The notes beneath the pieces were generated by a model, which had not been told where the DNA came from, searched no databases, and saw only the letters and a program-made list of their open reading frames with translations. 15,683 bases of DNA from contig JANBPK010000271.1 in the NCBI GenBank assembly GCA_027579435.1, forward strand, positions 1-15,683, in the 5' to 3' direction. The position numbers and the translations under genes are program-made. Positions 1-12,018 of this stretch are shown one piece after another. Position 1 is the stretch's first letter. The number at the start of each line of letters is the position of its first letter. This DNA is from Candolleomyces eurysporus (taxonomy: Eukaryota; Basidiomycota; Agaricomycetes; Agaricales; Psathyrellaceae).

Positions 1-1431
1 CTGACGTCGTCTCTCTCAGAGCATGCTAGCCTGGAAAATCGCACCTGCTGTTGCTACTGGAAATACTGTCGTGATCAAGGTCGGACAAACTGGGGCTCGC
101 TCTAACCAGCTGCTGATTTGAATTTGTGGACAGCCTTCCGAGGTTACGCCTCTGACGGCTCTGAAGCTGGCTGAGGTGGTGAAGGAGGCAGGGTTCCCAC
201 CGGGAGTCATCAACATTGTCAATGGTTATGGTAAGTCCTCGACCTAAGAAATGCCTCGGATGCTTAATGCTGAATCATACATAGGCGCTACGGTCGGCCA
301 GGCCATCTCTGAACACTACGGCATCGAAAAGGTTGCGTTCACGGGAAGTACTTTGACGGGACGCCGAATCCTGAAGGCGGCTGCCGAAACCAACTTGAAG
401 GATGTCTCTTTGGAGCTTGGAGGAAAGAGCCCTACCATTATCTTCGAAGACGCTAACCTTGAGCAGGCAATCAAATGGGCTGCTGGTGGTATATTGTTAG
501 TCCCTTCCTCTGGTTTATCTCGAAGCCCGTTCAGGCTCTGATTGGCGTATTAACACACCCAGCTTTAACATGGGCCAGGTTTGCAGTGCAGGATCGAGAA
601 TATTTGTTCAGGAAGGCGTTTACGACAAGTTCTTGGAGCATTTCACTGCAGCGGCCAAGGGTCTGGGAGACAGCGCTGGCGACCCATTCGCCGCTGGTAC
701 TCAACACGGTCCCCAGGTCTCGAAAACTCAATTCGACGTACGTCCTCATGTTATACTCGTCTACTTGGCCTCGCTGACTAACACCATGAATCAATTCAGC
801 GCATTATGTCGTACATCGACTCGGGCAAAGAAGCCGGCGCGCATGTCCAAGTCGGAGGAGAAAGGCATGGCGATAAGGGTTTCTTCATCAAGCCCACTGT
901 CTTCACCAATGTTACACCCGATATGAAGATTGTGCGCGAAGAGATCTTTGGGCCGGTTGGTGTTGTCTTAAAGTTCAAGACAGAAGAAGGTATGCATAGC
1001 CATTCATATACACCGGATTTTGATGAACCGCTCACGTCGTCGGGTGGCCATATTCGTTTTTAAGAGGTCATCGAGCTGGCGAACGACACTACGTATGGAC
1101 TGGCAAGTCACATCTTCTCGGAAAATACTAGTCGTGCAATCAGAGTCGCGCATGCCCTTGAATCTGGCAGCGTTTGGGTATGCTTTCCCGCGACGTCCTC
1201 ATGCCAGTCAGTGCTCATGTAGTCCGTAGGTGAACTGCGCCAACAGCCTCGAGATCAGCGTTCCGTTCGGAGGATACAAGCAATCTGGTAACGGTGGTCG
1301 GGATCTGGGTGAATATGCTTTGGAAACGTATGTGGTTATTCTCTTTTCTGCTGACCAGGACATGATTCTGATCTTGCATTAGGTACACACAGGTCAAGGG
1401 TGTTCACATCAATGTGGGGCTCAAACTGTAA
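1..1431 (+). CDS. NAD(P)+-dependent aldehyde dehydrogenase, 3' part (5' end outside window)
   Basis: Oxidises aldehydes to carboxylic acids with NAD(P)+. Exons read as 20-79, 134-230, 285-495, 563-737, 800-989, 1065-1177, 1230-1327 and 1383-1431; the first is internal, as an acceptor (ctctctcag) ends at 19. All phases agree and give about 330 residues of a family usually near 500. In order I see [14 protein letters not shown] and VVIKPSE (cofactor pocket), [13 protein letters not shown] (general-base Glu), GQVCSAGSR (catalytic Cys), EEIFGPV, and [17 protein letters not shown] (here NGGRD) near the end; it stops after HINVGLKL. The most unusual junction is the donor at 80 (GTCGGA), but removing 80-133 restores the standard family reading. 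No defect is seen in this part. Transcription converges with the minus-strand pseudogene, whose modelled stop is about 90 bp away. Family is certain; substrate is not. Confidence 0.95.
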
Positions 1432-4463: not shown

Positions 4464-5643
4464 CTAGAGTTTGGGTCCATCCAAGCGAGATGGCACTTTC
4501 AACGGGGCGAAATTGGCCTTCCTCTTCTGCTTGGTGGCTTGAAGATTTTCAAGGATGTCCTAAGGCAACGATGAGCGACAAGTACCGAAGGAGGCGTATT
4601 CTCTGCGTACGTTTGTCATGAGAGCATGGGCATTCCATGCGCCAGTATACGCTAGGTTCTCAGGGACGCTGCGGAGATTCTAGTAAGATAGAGCCTACTC
4701 TTGCGAGGAGGCTGAGGGCGTACCTGTGGTCTCGGGCATGAGTGATCAGGTGCTTTGACCCTGATACGGCGATTGGGCTCTTGGTTGAGATGAAGCGGGC
4801 CAATTCCAGGGCCTCTTTGACGACTTCATCCCTGCTTCCTGGGACTACCTTGGAAAGGAGCCCAATCTTCTCTGCCTCTGCAGCGCTGAAAGGTCGAGCG
4901 GTGTAAGCCAATTCACGAACCAGGGAGTGGTTTCCTGTGATATGAGGGAGGAAGGCCAACGATCCAATGTCTGCTGCGAGCCCAATGTCCACTTCCTATT
5001 ACGGGTGTAAGCAGGTATTCACTACGTGAACGACAACGCGCACCTTGATGGAGAACTTGGAGTCTGCAGCTGCGTAACGAATATCACAGGCGCTGATCAA
5101 GTCCACGCCGAGACCGATAACGTGGTTGTGGGTAGCCGCGATGACCGGGAACGGGCAGCGCTCNGGGGGCACCGATGGCATGTTGGAATTCGAGCAGCAT
5201 CTTGCGCATGGCAAGAGACGACCTGGCACCGTCACGGGTAGTATCTGCGCCGTCGCCTCCAAGGTTTCCAGCATCTCCCACTAATCCAGGTCAGTCTCCT
5301 CTACGCCTAATGAAACGGGAGCAACTCACAGTCCAGTCCTGCGGTGAATATTTTGGGAAAGGCAGACGACACTACGGCTGCACGAACATCCACGCCGTCG
5401 GCGACGAGCGAGTCGAACACCTTGCCATACGATCTCCAGAACCTGATACCTCTTATGAGAAACCCCGTTCCACGTCCTGATCCTATACATACTCTTGAGA
5501 GAATGCGTTTACCGGGCCCCTAACCATGGTAAAGATCTAAAATGCTAGGGAATTGCAAGGGTTGCTTACCTGGCAAGTTGGATATGTGCTACGTGAGGAA
5601 ATGGCTCAGAGACCTTTATCCACTTTGTCGAGTAGTTATCCAT
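4464..5643 (-). CDS. Peroxisomal delta3,5-delta2,4-dienoyl-CoA isomerase (ECH1-like, crotonase fold)
   Basis: Isomerises 3,5-dienoyl-CoA to 2,4-dienoyl-CoA during beta-oxidation of unsaturated fatty acids with odd-position double bonds. Exons 5643-5570, 5519-5493, 5451-5330, 5280-5044, 4995-4724, 4668-4611 and 4559-4464 join in phase to about 294 residues, a normal family length. Start MDNYSTKWIKV; then HIQLARGPVNAFSQ, FTAGLDL (oxyanion-hole region), ERCPFPVIAATH and GVDLISACDIRY. The catalytic residues known from rat ECH1 (D176, E196, D204) correspond to D134 (GVDLIS), E154 (KEVDIG) and D162 (LAAD), all present. The protein ends PKL, a PTS1-type tripeptide, so peroxisomal location is likely. 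The N at 5164 adds one base in exon 4; dropping it gives the family reading APERCPFP. Intron 5492-5452 is 41 nt. A transposon ends about 380 bp upstream. Other crotonase activities are possible, but the residue pattern favours ECH1. Confidence 0.9.
5164..5164. other. Undetermined base that breaks the isomerase frame
   Basis: A single N sits in a run of G on the plus strand (C on the coding strand) inside exon 4 of the dienoyl-CoA isomerase gene. With N counted the frame shifts by one; without it the conserved ERCPFPVIAAT reading is restored and the exon phases agree. It is therefore most likely an extra consensus base at a homopolymer, not a mutation. The other N, at 1986, lies in a T-rich intron of the MYND pseudogene. 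Confidence 0.85.
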
Positions 5644-6022
5644 GGTTGAGATGGTAGGAGGAAGCTAGAAAGGGTTGGCAGAACATAGCGGTCAGCGAGT
5701 TAGCCGGTTGTAAACATTTGATTTCCGGCGCATGATGTACAATGTTTGTCCTTGAAGGCTTTGGTCTTTCGAGCCAAACAACGGCTTGCTTTGATTTCAT
5801 TTCTCGCTCTTTTGGGCTTCTTTTCGACTACCACTATCAACCAACTGCTGAACCCATCGTCTCAGAATGCCACAAATTTTGCGAATACCGAGTAGCAGCT
5901 TGGCGCTTATGCTTGCCATTGTCGTCAAGTCTAGCGAAAGAGCGATCAACGAGTGAGCACTCGAGGAGTTTGACGACTACCCAATCCTAACCATCCTCGG
6001 TCATCACCGCTTCACAACCCAC
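5644..6022. promoter_or_regulatory. Upstream region of the dienoyl-CoA isomerase gene
   Basis: No gene is supported here. The region lies between the isomerase start codon (minus strand) and the left target-site copy of the transposon. It should carry the isomerase promoter. A CCTCGG hexamer occurs at 5995-6000. This is the core bound by FarA-type fatty-acid regulators in ascomycetes, but one hexamer is weak evidence and its use in basidiomycetes is not established. A plus-strand open frame at 5742-5990 shows no recognisable features. Confidence 0.4.
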
Positions 6023-6028
6023 TACTTA
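6023..6028. repeat. Left target-site duplication (TACTTA)
   Basis: A 6-bp direct repeat directly abuts the left terminal inverted repeat, and the same six bases directly follow the right one at 11408-11413. Setting the element ends at TGG..CCA gives the only symmetric placement with a perfect duplication. Confidence 0.8.
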
Positions 6029-6069
6029 TGGTTGGCGGGAACTTCATGGCAGGATTTTTTCCCGCGCGA
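6029..6069 (+). repeat. Left terminal inverted repeat of the transposon
   Basis: These 41 bases match the reverse complement of 11367-11407 at 40 positions. The outer end is TGGTTGGCGGGAAC and the inner end TTTTTTCCCGCGCGA. Similarity stops abruptly just inside and just outside the repeat. This is the likely transposase binding site. Confidence 0.93.
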
Positions 6070-6836
6070 CAGTGCCACAGCCACCCGCCACTCCTCGAGT
6101 CCTCCGCCTCGCTATCGTCGCCCTGCCACAATTCAAGCTCGGGGGTTTATTTTCTTGGTGAAATCAAGTTCTTTGAGATTAATATTACATGTTTAAGCAG
6201 TCCGTTTTTCTTAGTGAAGTCCCCAGACGTACAGAGGAGCCATGTGGCTGATCGAGCAGCCTCATGGATGTCCTGCACACACGCTCGTTAAAGATGGCTC
6301 TGCCACGCCCCAGGATCGAACCAGCTTTCATCGAAACCGGTTTGTAGCTGTAGGAGGTATGAAATGGATTCTTTCTGATACATTCTTGGGTGTAGGACAT
6401 TTTGGAGAAGCTGAGTTATTAGCAGTTAGAATCTCCGGCTCTCTCTTCAATGCACCGCGAAATCAGGAGCTTGCTTTGTATTTACAGCTTCTATCAGCTA
6501 CTACCGTCGGTAGAAGGCACAAGAGGAGTTGTTTTCTTCGCCCATAGCACTAGAATCACTTGTCGAAACAGTTCCAACTGCTAATTCCGATGATTCTCAT
6601 TGGTTCTGCCTTTTCTTTGTTCTTACCGAGAAAACTGGAAGCGAAATTCATGAGAATCCTCCGTGAATCTTGCATTTGAAGCAAGGAATACTGAGTGCTT
6701 CTTTAAACGTGCAGAGGATCGTGGCTGGGGAGTGTGGTGCGACGACTTTAGCATCCAAGTCAAACGACAAGTGAATGTTGAAAGTATAAAAGCCTGTTAG
6801 GCTCTTGCCAGAAATGCACCCTCACACTCAACGAGC
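6070..6836 (+). promoter_or_regulatory. Leader region inside the transposon, upstream of the alpha-kinase gene
   Basis: These 767 bases between the left inverted repeat and the kinase start hold no supported gene. A clear TATA box (TATAAAAG) lies at 6785-6792, 45 to 52 bp before the ATG at 6837, so the cargo gene seems to bring its own promoter. A 101-codon open frame at 6242-6547 has no recognisable motif and stops well before the kinase gene; I treat it as chance. Confidence 0.6.
6785..6792 (+). promoter_or_regulatory. TATA box of the alpha-kinase gene
   Basis: The sequence TATAAAAG lies about 50 bp before the kinase start codon, leaving room for a short 5' leader. It fits the consensus and is the only strong TATA element in the leader region. 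Confidence 0.65.
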
Positions 6837-9322
6837 ATGGCTAACGTTGAGCTCACTCCAACTTCGCTCTGTGGTGCCAATGATGGCGATGGCTGTGGGG
6901 GAGTTTTTCCCCGCAAGGTTGAGGATGGTTTATGCGCAAGATGTGCAATGCTCTCGACGCTCACCGAAGGAACGGAGGAGTGGAGCAAGTATCAGGTATT
7001 TTTTGGTGCCATTATTAACAGTGCAGGGCTATAACAGCTAATGTCTATCTGTTTAATCAAATTTTAGGCGTACAAGCAGTGCCGCTCATGTGGAAAAACA
7101 TGGAAATATATGACAGGCCAAACTTGTGGCTCCTGTACACTCTCTGGCGGGAGACCTTTGACAGGGCCGCCACCAGCTAACCCACGTCAGTAATTTTGGT
7201 TTGTTCTTATATTTTATCTGCACTGAAGCTGCTTTGACCTCAGCTCAAGCCGATAAAGCGCAGCTCGCTGCTGACGCGGCAAATCTGGCTAGAGGCCATG
7301 CCTTGTCTGCCCGACTTACGAAGAGCGGAGCACCAGCCTTTGCGCCTGGAGGGCCGCTTGCAGGAGGCAAGACGAGTGGCTCCACAACGCTTCCAAGCAC
7401 ACAGGTTATGTGTAAGTTTGCGTGTCGCCTCCGGACTGGATCCAAAAAAGATAGCAAGAGTGTCGACTTGGATCTTGGGTCTTGGTGTACCCCATTTCCA
7501 CGGGAAGCATATATATCAGGTTTGTTTCCCGACCTACTGCAAAATCAAGGGCTAAATTTACGAGATATAGAGGTCTTTGACGACGCTTTGGCCAATGCCA
7601 ATCATAGGTGGAGCAAAAATTACGGGATGGACCTTCTCGAGTGAGTTTTCTCTTGCAGTCGTCTACTTAGTCATGGTAGTTTGATATTCATTCAACCGTT
7701 CGATTACATCTGCTAGGACCGAGGTGGAGCTTCGATTTGCTGGGAATAAGACTTTTCTCCGGAACACTGAAAGTGGTACTGTTGGTGACGTCTGCTCCCA
7801 GTATCTTACCGGCCCAATGGCCGAGTATTACGGGCAATCAAGGGCATCAAACTTGAAGCATGCATCGTCAGCTGTAGCACGTATGCAGTCTTCCCTTGAC
7901 TTGGAGTTATTCATTGACAAGGTCACGGTACGTCCTTGAGATATTCAATCGGGTTTTATTTAAACTCCTGATGCACCGTGTTTTAGTTTCTGGAGCGCCT
8001 GGAATTGATTCATGGCGGTGAGGGGACAGTGTCAGTCTCAACAGCACCTCGAGGCTCTCGAAAACGCAGCGGCACTCAATCTACGCTCCATGAGGCTGCC
8101 ACAAGGCAGAAGCGTCCAAGTCTGCGCACTGGTACAGATACATTCTATATTTGCCTGCTATCATCGCCTTCTAATGTCAGTCTCTTAGATCCACTCGAGT
8201 CAACTTATGCCCCAACTCACACCCGCAAGAACAAACCATCGAGTACGGAGATTCTGATTGAGCGGGCCAACTGTGTTAGGTCCGAAGAGAACAGCCAAGT
8301 CACGATCTCTTGGCCAGACGACCCATTGCGCACTGAATTTGCTACCATCTCTCATGGCCTTTTTGCCATGGGACGTACCAAGCGTGTCTATGAGGTAAGT
8401 GATGTACAAGCTTGCTATGTTTTTTGCCGCTAATCTTCCCCAAACCTAGCTCCGCATTCAGGATGATGAACAGCCTTACGTTGCAAAGCGCTTTTTCAAA
8501 GTGAGAACCGGTGAGAACAACTTGATCACCGCAGAGGAAAATGAAGACTTCCTTGAATGCGAGTTGATTCGTCTACAAGTTCTGGATTGGTTCATTAGAA
8601 GCTTTCTCAAGCATGCTGGTCCAGATGGCGTCAATGTTGAGCACCACAAGTGTACGTCCTCCCACTTCTACGACTTCAAATTCTTAGCAAACCTTTCATA
8701 CTTGTTGACGTTAGACATCACCGTGTCCGAAGCCTTTCTTATACATGAGATTGGGGACCCATCAGACCCATCAGGCTTGCCATCCGAAGACCCTAACACG
8801 TCAGTTTGGCTGGTCGAGCCAAAGCGCACACGCTCAGTGAGGAAATTCTGTGGGACGCTTGGACATCCAGAGCGAAATGATAAGGTTGGAAAAACAATTG
8901 CTGCTTTGTGTCACTGGATCTATGTCTCCACTCGCAAGACTGAGGTGTATGCTGACATTCAAGGTACGTTTCCAACCTTGAGTTTTAAGCTGTGAATAAG
9001 AATTCATTACTGAAGTATTATTTTCAGGCTCATTTATGACTATTGACGGCCAAGAGACGCTAATTCTATTTGATCCGATGGCTCACACCGTTGATCAGTA
9101 AGTCTGCAAGCTAGTCCTCTCATTGCCTGGTCTGATGAGCATCTCTTTTACAGGGATAGCGGTGTGGGAGACCACGGTGAAGAAGGCATCCAGAGGTTCC
9201 TTTCCGAACATCAGTGCAACTACATTTGCCAAGGTCTTGGCTTAGTGCCTATAGCCGATATGAATGACCTAAGCAAGAACGTTCAAACGGACACAGATGC
9301 CAGTAACGAAGATTCCGATTAG
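6837..9322 (+). CDS. Zinc-ribbon alpha-kinase (MHCK/EF2K type), transposon cargo
   Basis: An atypical protein kinase expected to phosphorylate Ser/Thr; substrates are unknown. Nine exons (6837-6995, 7068-7185, 7229-7640, 7717-7927, 7987-8394, 8450-8651, 8715-8963, 9028-9097, 9154-9322) join in phase to 665 residues with no stop. Residues 20-76 hold an upstream Cys and three CxxC pairs (C33/C36, C58/C61, C73/C76), a zinc-ribbon-like module common in Agaricomycete alpha-kinases. A variable middle with a basic linker (RGSRKRSG) follows. The kinase domain covers roughly 420-640: YVAKRFFK (probable ATP-binding Lys), ECELIRL, TRSVRKFCGT, VYADIQG, and the C-terminal signature DSGVGDHGEEGI with CNYICQGLGL. 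The tail is acidic and ends EDSD. The gene lies wholly inside the inverted repeats and 321 bp before the transposase, on the same strand. The start in AGCATGGC has a TATA box about 50 bp upstream. The open frame argues for function or recent arrival. Family assignment is strong from motifs. Confidence 0.92.
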
Positions 9323-9643
9323 AGGCTTGAACTTTCCCTACTATTACTACTACCTAAATTGCTGTCTTCTACTTCCGTCAATTGTCTTGGAGTTTCCTTT
9401 CTTGTTCGTCTGTTCTTGACAGAAGCTGTCGATAATTAATATTTGGCAAGCTTCTTGCGGTTACTGTTCTTTTAGTCAGTGTCGGAGATAGGGTCTATCA
9501 AGGAGATGTACGCTACCTGAACACTATTTAACGAATGAGTTTACTATCACTAATTTAGCCCAATCGAAACTGAACTCCCCTACCAGCCCCGTACACCACT
9601 ACTCTCATAGTTGTACACTGAGTCTCTGATTTGCGCACTAACC
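9323..9643 (+). other. Spacer between alpha-kinase and transposase genes
   Basis: These 321 bases hold no gene. They should contain the 3' end of the kinase transcript and the promoter of the transposase. A TATTTAA stretch near 9525 is a possible but weak TATA-like element about 115 bp before the transposase start. No inverted repeat divides the two genes, which supports a single element carrying both. Confidence 0.5.
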
Positions 9644-11115
9644 ATGAGTAATAACAACATGGCAGGAAAGAACAGCTACGGAGACAAGAACTGTGAGTTA
9701 CCTTATCCTTTATCATGCCACACTCGTGTCTAAGGGCTACGCTCAAACACAGATCCTCCCGATGAGGTTCTTGAAGCAGCACTTTCCCAGTACGCTTCAG
9801 AGAGGCTGAGCACCGAACAGAAGCTTGTTCGTCTTCAAACTGAGCACCAAACAGTTATTAAGTGAGTACCTTGTGCTCTCAGTTACCCTCATTTTATTTA
9901 TAGTGACATCATTCAGGCCGTCTACGCTTTATGCCCTGCAGCGAAAGTTCAAGATACCAAGTGTTCGAAAGCCTCCTCCTGAGGAGATTGCGACTGCCTA
10001 TGTGCTCAAAAAGGTAGCTGAAGACGTGAATCAACGAAATGGAACCGGTACAATTGGAACCCTTCTTGCGAGCGAAGGAGTTCTCATTCCACGGTATGAT
10101 TTTGCTCTATCTCTTGCCTGTAGGCTCCTTACTCCCTCTCTAGTGACCTCATCCGTAAAATACTGGCATGCCATGCTCCGGAAGGGCTCGAGCGCTGTTT
10201 TCCTGGTGCAGGCCGCATCAAACGAGCCCAGCTCAGTGCACCTGGACCCGGCTGGCAGTACCATGCTGATGGGCATGAGAAGTTAAATGCTCAAGCACTT
10301 AAAATGGGAGGGGTTGGGCTCGAGATCTATGGGATCAAGGACCAATGGTCGTCATTCCTTTTGCATCTGGTTGTGGTCCCAAATAATCGACTGGCGGACA
10401 CCATTGGGCATGTTTATTTGGATATGATTGAGAAATACAACCGTACGTCACTCAAGATCCTTCAGGCGCTGATATGAACTGAATTCAAGCGCCATGTGTC
10501 CCAGACATTCCTCTCACAATGGTTACCGACAAAGGCAGCGAGATTCCATTTCTGTTTGCGCATCAAACAGGGCTGCGGTATGCTTCACTCCTTTATTCCT
10601 AAACTTCTCTTGCTCACTGACCTCTCAGCGAGGCTTACACCCCCGAGCTTGATGTGACGAAAATCCCACCTGTTCTTCAGCTCAAAAGCGTTCACAACAC
10701 ACCCATTGAGCTTCTGTGGCATTGGTTTTCAGACACATGTGGTCTTAATATAAAGGAGGTGATTATTTCTGGCTATGAAATGGGCATCTACAATCCAAAT
10801 AACCCAATTCATCCGTATGTTGTCACCACTATTTCGTTCTCTGTTCTCCACTTAGCAAGGTCTCTTGTTAGTCAGCTTTTCAATTGGGTGTGGCCGAAGG
10901 CTTTGCAACTTCAGCTCGATCGGTTTGCCACATATTGGAACAACCATAAAGTTCGGACCCAGAGGAACAAGGCCAACATGTCCGGATTGACCCCTCGGCA
11001 TGCATTTATTACGCCAGATCCAACCCGCTACACAAAATGCTATGTCGAGATTGATCGTGTCGTTGTAGATGCTCTCAGGGAGCAGATTCCTACGTCACGC
11101 AAGGAGTCGATGTGA
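9644..11115 (+). CDS. rve-type DDE integrase / transposase, truncated near the C terminus by TGA
   Basis: Predicted to cut and join the ends of the surrounding transposon. Exons 9644-9692, 9753-9861, 9917-10093, 10144-10442, 10490-10577, 10629-10814 and 10860-11115 join in phase to 387 residues. The N-terminal 110 residues (YPPDEVLEAAL, LYALQRKFKIPS, VAEDVNQRNG, GTLLASEG) look like the helical DNA-binding part of fungal integrase-core proteins. The catalytic core carries all three acidic residues: D154 in WQYHADGHEKL, D225 in VTDKGSE and E268 in SVHNTPIELLW; it continues FNWVWPKAL and TYWNNHKVRTQ. The frame stops at TGA 11113-11115 after KESM, yet the same frame continues for 44 codons (FVDDAFLELVEEAYNAVG) to TGA 11248-11250. 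The family, as I recall it, has Trp at the stop position, so TGG to TGA is likely. I tested introns across the TGA and none keeps the frame. Activity of the shortened protein is uncertain. Confidence 0.88.
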
Positions 11116-11250
11116 TTTGTTGATGATGCATTCCTGGAACTTGTAGAAGAGGCGTACAACGCAGTGGGAAAGCCTGACCTTTCTGATATTCATCGGGTTT
11201 GGAACGTCTTTTCTGCAATTCTCATCCATATTCCAGACTTTGTTCAGTGA
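11116..11250 (+). pseudogene. Orphaned C-terminal tail of the transposase
   Basis: Directly after the TGA the same reading frame stays open for 44 codons and ends at a second TGA. It encodes FLELVEEAYNAVGKP and IHRVWNVFSAI, which resemble the C-terminal helices of related fungal integrase-core proteins. It was probably part of the transposase before a nonsense change. It would be restored in expression only by stop-codon readthrough. Confidence 0.7.
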
Positions 11251-11366
11251 TCTCTTATTTAACTACATGTATTGATAGGCTTTGACACGAAACACGGTCC
11301 CCCGCAGTCTGCGCAAGGTTGATGAGACATCAAAGGTTGCGCTAGGGATTGGGAGGCAGATATCGC

Positions 11367-11407
11367 TCGCGCGGGAAAAAATCCTGCCGTGAAGTTCCCG
11401 CCAACCA
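11367..11407 (-). repeat. Right terminal inverted repeat of the transposon
   Basis: Reverse complement of the left repeat at 40 of 41 positions; the outer end reads CCGCCAACCA on the plus strand. It lies 117 bp after the last stop codon of the transposase frame, so the coding content fills the element almost to its right end. Confidence 0.93.
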
Positions 11408-11413
11408 TACTTA
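11408..11413. repeat. Right target-site duplication (TACTTA)
   Basis: Direct copy of the six bases that precede the left inverted repeat. Removing the element and one copy would give a pre-insertion site reading CCACTACTTATCCCGG. Confidence 0.8.
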
Positions 11414-12018
11414 TCCCGGCGCAAATTAAACGCTGGAGGGAGACCCTGAGTTCCTTCGGGAACGGGTTGTTGACCGAATGGATCGAAGCGGCTGAGTGTA
11501 TGTCGTTCAGGTGGTTGTCTTGGCGGATAGCTTGACCGACGACCTCCGGTTTACTGAGTAGGGTCGGATTGTGGGTCAGGATTTGAACCTGTTCGACGAT
11601 AAAGGTCAGAAAAGTGAAGCGGCTCGAGAAAGGCCTAAGGAAGACTCACGGCCTGCTCTACTAAGGGCTGGTTGAGAGCAGAGTTCTGGCTTATCGAGTG
11701 AAGAACAGGGACCGATGGCATAAGAAAGAATTTCGGGATTATCTTGCCGAGGCGTTCCTTCCAGAAATCGGCTATGTTGCTGGAGTTCATAAGGGGTTGG
11801 GACGCCATAGTAAACGAAGGCGGGTAGTGCGGAAAAGTAAGGTAATAGCGGAAGATAAAGGTCGAGTGTTGGGTCTGGAGCGGCGTGGTTTTTCTGCGGC
11901 TTGACGCCTCTCTTATGAAGGAGGCTAGGTTTCAGGCCGCTCCAGTAAATGACGACACGCTGCTAGCGATTTTGTTTCATTTCTCCTATATCCCTCAAGC
12001 CGGGGACGGCTAGAATTT

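Follow-up and report, generated by a model that had tools for sequence, protein, structure and literature searches.

Why do a protein kinase gene and a transposase gene lie side by side between two long inverted repeats in a mushroom genome, and is the kinase a passenger or a working part of the element that carries it? The question is raised by contig C868 (GenBank JANBPK010000271.1) of the Candolleomyces eurysporus assembly GCA_027579435.1 (65.85 Mb in total), whose 15,683 nucleotides, the whole stretch of DNA that was analyzed, are referred to as the window. We regard the enclosed element, with good confidence, as an IS3EU-like transposon with terminal inverted repeats (TIRs) that codes for a DDE transposase and an alpha-kinase, the latter most likely a resident accessory gene predicted to be active in the element's cycle, and the window as the junction of two insertions.

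Termini, Target-Site Duplications, and the Window as a Junction

An earlier note on this DNA had described 41-bp inverted repeats with 40 matches, enclosing only two genes, both on the plus strand. The repeats were reproduced (matches at 40 of 41 positions of the core), and the genes between the two arms are an alpha-kinase (PF02816, E 2.5e-30) followed by a DDE transposase (PF24764, E 5.9e-12); no plus-strand open reading frame of at least 80 aa is confined to the 321-bp gap that separates them. The ends had been read as TG..CA. We place them one step further out, at TA..TA, since end-like sites keep TA or TG directly outside TGG/AGG (20 and 12, respectively, i.e. 32 of 36 distinct sites, the remaining four being poor matches) and the paired duplications lie beyond this TA or TG, so that the window termini become TATGG..CCATA.

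Whether the window holds one genuine insertion was decided by its flanks. The hexamer TACTTA, which had been taken for the target-site duplication, is present as letters on both sides, as a single insertion would have it, but it was rejected as a duplication: it consists of the terminal TA plus flank, and related ends keep the T[A/G] inside the element and their duplications outside. Beyond the terminal TA the two window flanks mismatch each other (agreement 2/6 and 2/7), and both match the flanks of other contigs exactly; the ACTACT that ends the left flank starts the right flank of C957, and the CTTATC that starts the right flank ends the left flank of C1077. Both of these contigs begin inside the element and are, over the parts present, 99.4% (C957) and 97.9% (C1077) identical to that of the window. 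The window left flank, joined to C957 with a single ACTACT, aligns to contig C236 over 1005 bp with 92.8% identity, and with 94 of 95 positions over the junction. Because this join aligns straight through with one copy of ACTACT, the C236 stretch is taken to be a related empty site at the left insertion point; it supports the left-flank/C957 join only, and the window right flank has no match there. A single insertion flanked by TACTTA is thus highly improbable. Since the left flank pairs with C957 and the right flank with C1077, the window is the junction of two near-identical insertions, brought about by either mis-assembly or recombination between copies, and the swapped duplications are a caution against treating this contig as one insertion event.

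With the window's own pair set aside, exact duplications of 6-7 bp lie outside TA/TG in 6 of 10 same-contig end pairs, in a list that covers the ends caught by the search pattern; that of C650 agrees at 6/7. The sequences seen are ACTACT, CTTATC, GACTGG, CTGCGG and CCTATG (6 bp), and ATAGGAG, GCGGTCC and GTGGGAT (7 bp). The further copies with like ends and differing duplications, as well as the related empty site, bear out the proposal of a mobile TIR element with the kinase inside. No clear reading frame runs over the join in the restored sites of E_B and C534. The left insertion point lies within a 150-residue open frame (C957:636-1022) of an unnamed gene that has no Pfam match, with a close relative at C236:46160-46603 (L082), which is interrupted by two stops, and a more remote relative at C1016. 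At C293:158 and C1027:223272 a related short element is bordered by the same 15 bases, a hint of duplicated or mis-joined contigs in the assembly.

The Transposase and its Superfamily

The window transposase carries the integrase core rva_4 and ends at an in-frame TGA (11113-11115), beyond which 44 codons stay open, reaching 11250 with the next stop; relatives continue beyond the position of this TGA. The residues of the DDE triad are present in 47, 47 and 49 of the 50 transposases aligned. For a relative, P0008, an integrase core fold was obtained. In Foldseek, the matches listed for the modeled transposase reached TM-scores by query length of at most 0.33, with the core alone matching, and the transposase profile found no match among PDB sequences. 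Among the matches listed there are 89 relatives, most of them from other mushrooms. Further rva_4-type integrase pieces lie at C316:25568-25870, C1034:764-1817, C99:34060-34628 and C24:17274-17839, and none of the alpha-kinase loci described below is on these four contigs.

Ginger2 elements have an HHCC zinc finger before the core. No His or Cys column conserved in at least 25 of the 50 sequences was found in the 149 N-terminal residues, i.e. there is no upstream HHCC motif in this region, and on this ground both Ginger2 and Ginger1, in which the HHCC finger precedes the core (PMC10045372), were rejected as the home of the element. TA..TA termini, duplications of about 6 bp, TIRs longer than 30 bp (43 bp) and an rve-fold DDE transposase devoid of HHCC were all found. 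By every listed feature tested (termini, repeat length, duplications, and predicted transposase fold), the element fits the IS3EU/GingerRoot superfamily.

Pairing of Alpha-Kinase and Transposase Genes

A Pfam model search of the C. eurysporus assembly returned 11 alpha-kinase loci (13 stretches), eight of which have an IS3EU-like transposase within 5 kb. By chance 0.046 would be expected, as 0.41% of the genome lies within this distance of the 29 transposase places, and the binomial P of 1.4e-17 treats as independent loci of which C868 and C1077 are near-identical and C534 and C1184 their relatives; grouped into lineages by the author, the count becomes 5/8. Chance closeness of the two genes was rejected on these numbers, and the expectation of the earlier note that kinases would adjoin integrase-core transposases more often than chance thus held in this genome. 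The locus counts are lower bounds, because the searches score only the best candidates; a widened kinase search (7993 candidates sharing most words scored) added two further C. eurysporus proteins. Among viral contigs, 118 stretches fitted a pattern, none of which was confirmed.

The pairing comes in four gene arrangements and, in the author's own grouping, in five divergent lineages: kinase then transposase on the same strand (C868, C1077, C534, C1184), divergent (C650, C417), convergent (C981), and transposase then kinase on the same strand (C195). That it persists as orientation and order change points to a functional link rather than hitch-hiking. Because eight of the 11 loci have such a transposase close by, much of the alpha-kinase family of C. 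eurysporus has likely spread within transposons, and not as host signaling genes.

The best-preserved diverged relative, C534:615-5588, is a complete element with both genes, TIRs and the duplication ATAGGAG, 66-70% identical to that of the window at the DNA level in matched stretches. Its ends read TGTGG..CCACA, as occasionally found in GingerRoot, its transposase aligns over 419 of 423 residues free of stops and frameshifts, and the stops in its kinase are confined to a stretch taken as intron. C1184 carries both genes in decayed form: a single stop interrupts the kinase where it could be aligned, and the transposase has a stop as well as two frameshifts. In C650:1514-6931 both genes, in divergent orientation, lie inside repeats of ≈ 220 bp that begin TATGGTTGGCGGGA (177/225 identical, ungapped). 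Kinase pieces beside transposase copies or pieces were found on C919, C887, C1268 and C1045. Outside this genome, C. efflorescens has a kinase/transposase pair, g8242/g8243, on one contig (length 34326), and in C. aberdarensis both appear as one fused gene model. Two reduced forms were also seen, an internally deleted derivative at C1045:45432-46838 (L020/L054), whose TIRs enclose the beginning of the kinase gene and the end of the transposase gene and which has the duplication GACTGG, and a 40-base miniature element at position 100669 of C49 (L007), scarcely more than two ends (TATGGTTGG...CCAACCATA) with GTTACG on both sides.

The Alpha-Kinase

The first splicing of the kinase gene, by hand and by aligner, gave ten exons and 641 aa. 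The stretch 7520-7570 (51 bp, in frame here) is taken as an intron because stop codons interrupt it in C534 and the C. efflorescens relative P0002 leaves it out, and the product is likely the 624-residue protein encoded by the 11 predicted exons. All eight cysteines of its N-terminal module recur in the proteins of C534, C. efflorescens and Coprinellus aureogranulatus. The kinase domain matches the solved alpha-kinases 4kuj, ALPK1, MHCK-A, eEF2K and 1ia9. The score lies above the Pfam cut-off of PF02816, and the catalytic Lys and Asp as well as the His-His-Cys-Cys zinc site of this family are present; the complete set comprises K408, E497, H529, D543, Q545, D561, G577, H588, C590 and C594, with roles assigned after work on TRPM7 and MHCK-A. 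In an alignment of nine kinases, compiled apart from C195, all of these except E497 are unchanged wherever covered, and G574 is altered in two. The predicted kinase structure was poor (mean pLDDT 37.7, seven sequences), and no fold search was based on it.

Selection, Co-Divergence, and the Role of the Kinase

Between the window and C534 the kinase genes (593 codons) differ with pN 0.167 and pS 0.761 (pN/pS ≈ 0.22), and the transposase genes with pN 0.113 and pS 0.749; raw pN/pS is quoted for C534 and C1184, and not dN/dS, because synonymous sites are saturated. An equal number of changes placed randomly gave a mean pN/pS of 0.97 and a minimum of 0.72 in 200 trials. Across the 624 kinase codons, the window and the recently separated C1077 differ by 13 synonymous and 8 non-synonymous changes. 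Furthermore, pairwise identities of kinase and transposase run in parallel in seven elements, six from C. eurysporus and one from C. efflorescens (r 0.98, as high in 13 of 5040 permutations), the spliced models of the distant members being approximate. Because of this purifying selection and parallel divergence, the kinase is read as a resident gene, and the term cargo used in the earlier note is probably the wrong word.

A number of observations weigh against this reading and against the element as described. The correlation is weaker within the closest family (r 0.77, four members). E497 is replaced by D in C417 and by V in C981, and in the C195 kinase D543 is replaced by N, so that some of the distant members may be modified or inactive. 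On the structural side, a single repeat was found at C1184, the 35-bp repeats of C981 (91%) show no duplication, no repeats appear in the near-side stretches covered for C417 and C195, three of the 10 same-contig end pairs (two C1027 pairings and C1277) have no exact duplication, and the matched stretch of C236 holds two stops. At three of the 11 kinase loci (C539, C93 and C61) the contig shows no transposase of this kind. Finally, within ≈ 1.5 kb on each side of the partial transposase copies C614, C1219, C1097, C917 and C683 there is no kinase match, and the kinase may therefore not be strictly needed.

These last copies, together with the four loci C919, C887, C1268 and C1045, where only kinase pieces are left, are what would be expected if the kinase were a fortuitously captured host gene, passive cargo acquired too recently for loss. 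We consider this unlikely, given strong purifying selection on the kinase between lineages with saturated synonymous sites, a pairing that spans the five lineages and four arrangements, the parallel divergence of both genes, and the same pairing reported for rust and truffle IS3EU (PMC12730594). The kinase might also serve the host, in signaling or defense, and the transposon merely spread a useful gene; rust papers indeed treat alpha-kinases as an enlarged host family (PMC4469406, PMC5295586), and the contigs C539, C93 and C61 could be seen in this light. Such a role is improbable in turn, as kinase divergence tracks transposase divergence and eight of 11 loci adjoin a transposase.

With the kinase as a resident gene, the following cycle can be envisaged. 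The transposase would bind the 43-bp repeats, excise the element and insert it into a target site with a stagger of 6-7 bp; cutting is suggested by the fold and the DDE triad, and what was observed are the ends, the duplications and the related empty site. The kinase, predicted to be active, would act in the element's own cycle. Its predicted substrate is either the transposase itself or a host factor that restricts transposition or keeps the element silent, and its cysteine-rich N-terminus likely serves for docking, either to DNA or to this substrate. A cut-and-paste transposon in which selection maintains a protein kinase would allow the idea of a mobile element with its own phosphorylation control to be tested.

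Feature Coordinates

Table 1. Features of the window and its IS3EU-like element, in order of position.
Feature	Position	Strand	Remarks
Host gene piece, aldehyde dehydrogenase	248-541	+	PF00171; left of the element
Host gene piece, enoyl-CoA hydratase	4660-4995	-	PF00378; left of the element
Left target-site duplication ACTACT	6021..6026		Partner on contig C957, not at the window right end; exact 6-bp match outside terminal TA
Left terminal inverted repeat	6027..6069	+	Starts TATGGTTGGCGGG; 98% complementary to 11367-11409 across 43 bases (core with TA added at each end)
Alpha-kinase gene	6837..9322	+	Predicted 11 exons, 624 aa; PF02816
Kinase exons 1-6	6837-6995, 7068-7185, 7244-7519, 7571-7640, 7717-7927, 7987-8131		
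Kinase exons 7-11	8189-8394, 8450-8651, 8715-8963, 9028-9097, 9154-9322		
Eight-cysteine N-terminal module	6870..7136	+	Residues 12-76; likely two zinc ribbons
Alpha-kinase domain	8371..9229	+	Residues 388-594 of the 624-aa model; PF02816
DDE transposase (rva_4)	9644..11115	+	7 exons; 378 aa up to the in-frame TGA
Right terminal inverted repeat	11367..11409	-	Ends CCGCCAACCATA
Right target-site duplication CTTATC	11410..11415		Partner on contig C1077; exact 6-bp match outside terminal TA

Comparison with Known Systems

The alpha-kinase domain was described as rare in the fungi surveyed in PMC2838846. In the rusts the family is "highly expanded" (PMC4469406), with a 2.34-fold enrichment (Q 0.035) in wheat rusts vs eight other basidiomycetes, an enrichment of the sort interpreted there as recent adaptation through duplication of genes (PMC5295586). 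No link of the alpha-kinase expansion to IS3EU was found in searches of the open-licence PMC literature, among the results of which "IS3EU" and "alpha-kinase" occur together only in PMC12730594; in the available text of PMC11645255 and PMC8955403, IS3EU elements are merely counted. Tentatively, and with slightly more doubt than belief, we suggest that fungal IS3EU elements have the alpha-kinase as their regular second protein and as a regulator of their own, the expansions in mushrooms and rusts consisting mostly of transposon genes and not of host signaling genes. If most rust alpha-kinases were transposon genes, the host-family counts (PMC4469406, PMC5295586) would need re-reading; as a parallel, TET/JBP genes likewise proved to ride on transposons (PMC12730594).

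Among alpha-kinases, TRPM7, eEF2K, MHCK-A and ALPK1 are related in sequence to the window kinase, which keeps their catalytic and zinc-binding residues and differs from them in being transposon-borne, in its eight-cysteine N-terminus and in an unassigned middle region. The superfamily description of IS3EU (TA..TA ends, usually 6-bp duplications) and GingerRoot (occasionally TG..CA) agrees with the window element in termini, duplications of about 6 bp, the rve-like DDE core and the missing HHCC motif; in contrast to this kinase-bearing element, the text of PMC10045372, as far as available, has no word beginning with "kinase". Styx of Zymoseptoria similarly combines an IS3EU-like transposase and extra genes with a 36-bp TIR, and 6-bp duplications were used in its search, but its other genes are of the GATA, CCHC and DUF3577 types, and no alpha-kinase is named in the accessible part of the paper (PMC10853768).

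The closest counterpart is the TET-bearing IS3EU of rusts and Tuber (Kojima 2025, PMC12730594), which contradicts the earlier note's view that no described transposon family has this pairing; the combination of IS3EU transposase and alpha-kinase is already published there, in one sentence. In all of these TET-bearing families a TET/JBP gene separates the transposase from the alpha-kinase, which are oppositely oriented, and the rust elements have 6-bp duplications, TIRs longer than 30 bp and TAYGG..CCRTA ends, features that recur in the window element along with the DDE transposase and alpha-kinase in one unit. The window element differs in that no TET gene lies between its genes, in the tandem order of kinase and transposase on one strand, in duplications of 6-7 bp and in its mushroom host; the opposite orientation of the published families, not seen in the window, occurs elsewhere in this genome, in C650, C417 and C981. 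Added here to the published pairing are the complete diverged relative C534, C650 with its divergent genes, the proximity at eight of 11 loci, the four arrangements, the constraint on the kinase, and its parallel divergence with the transposase.

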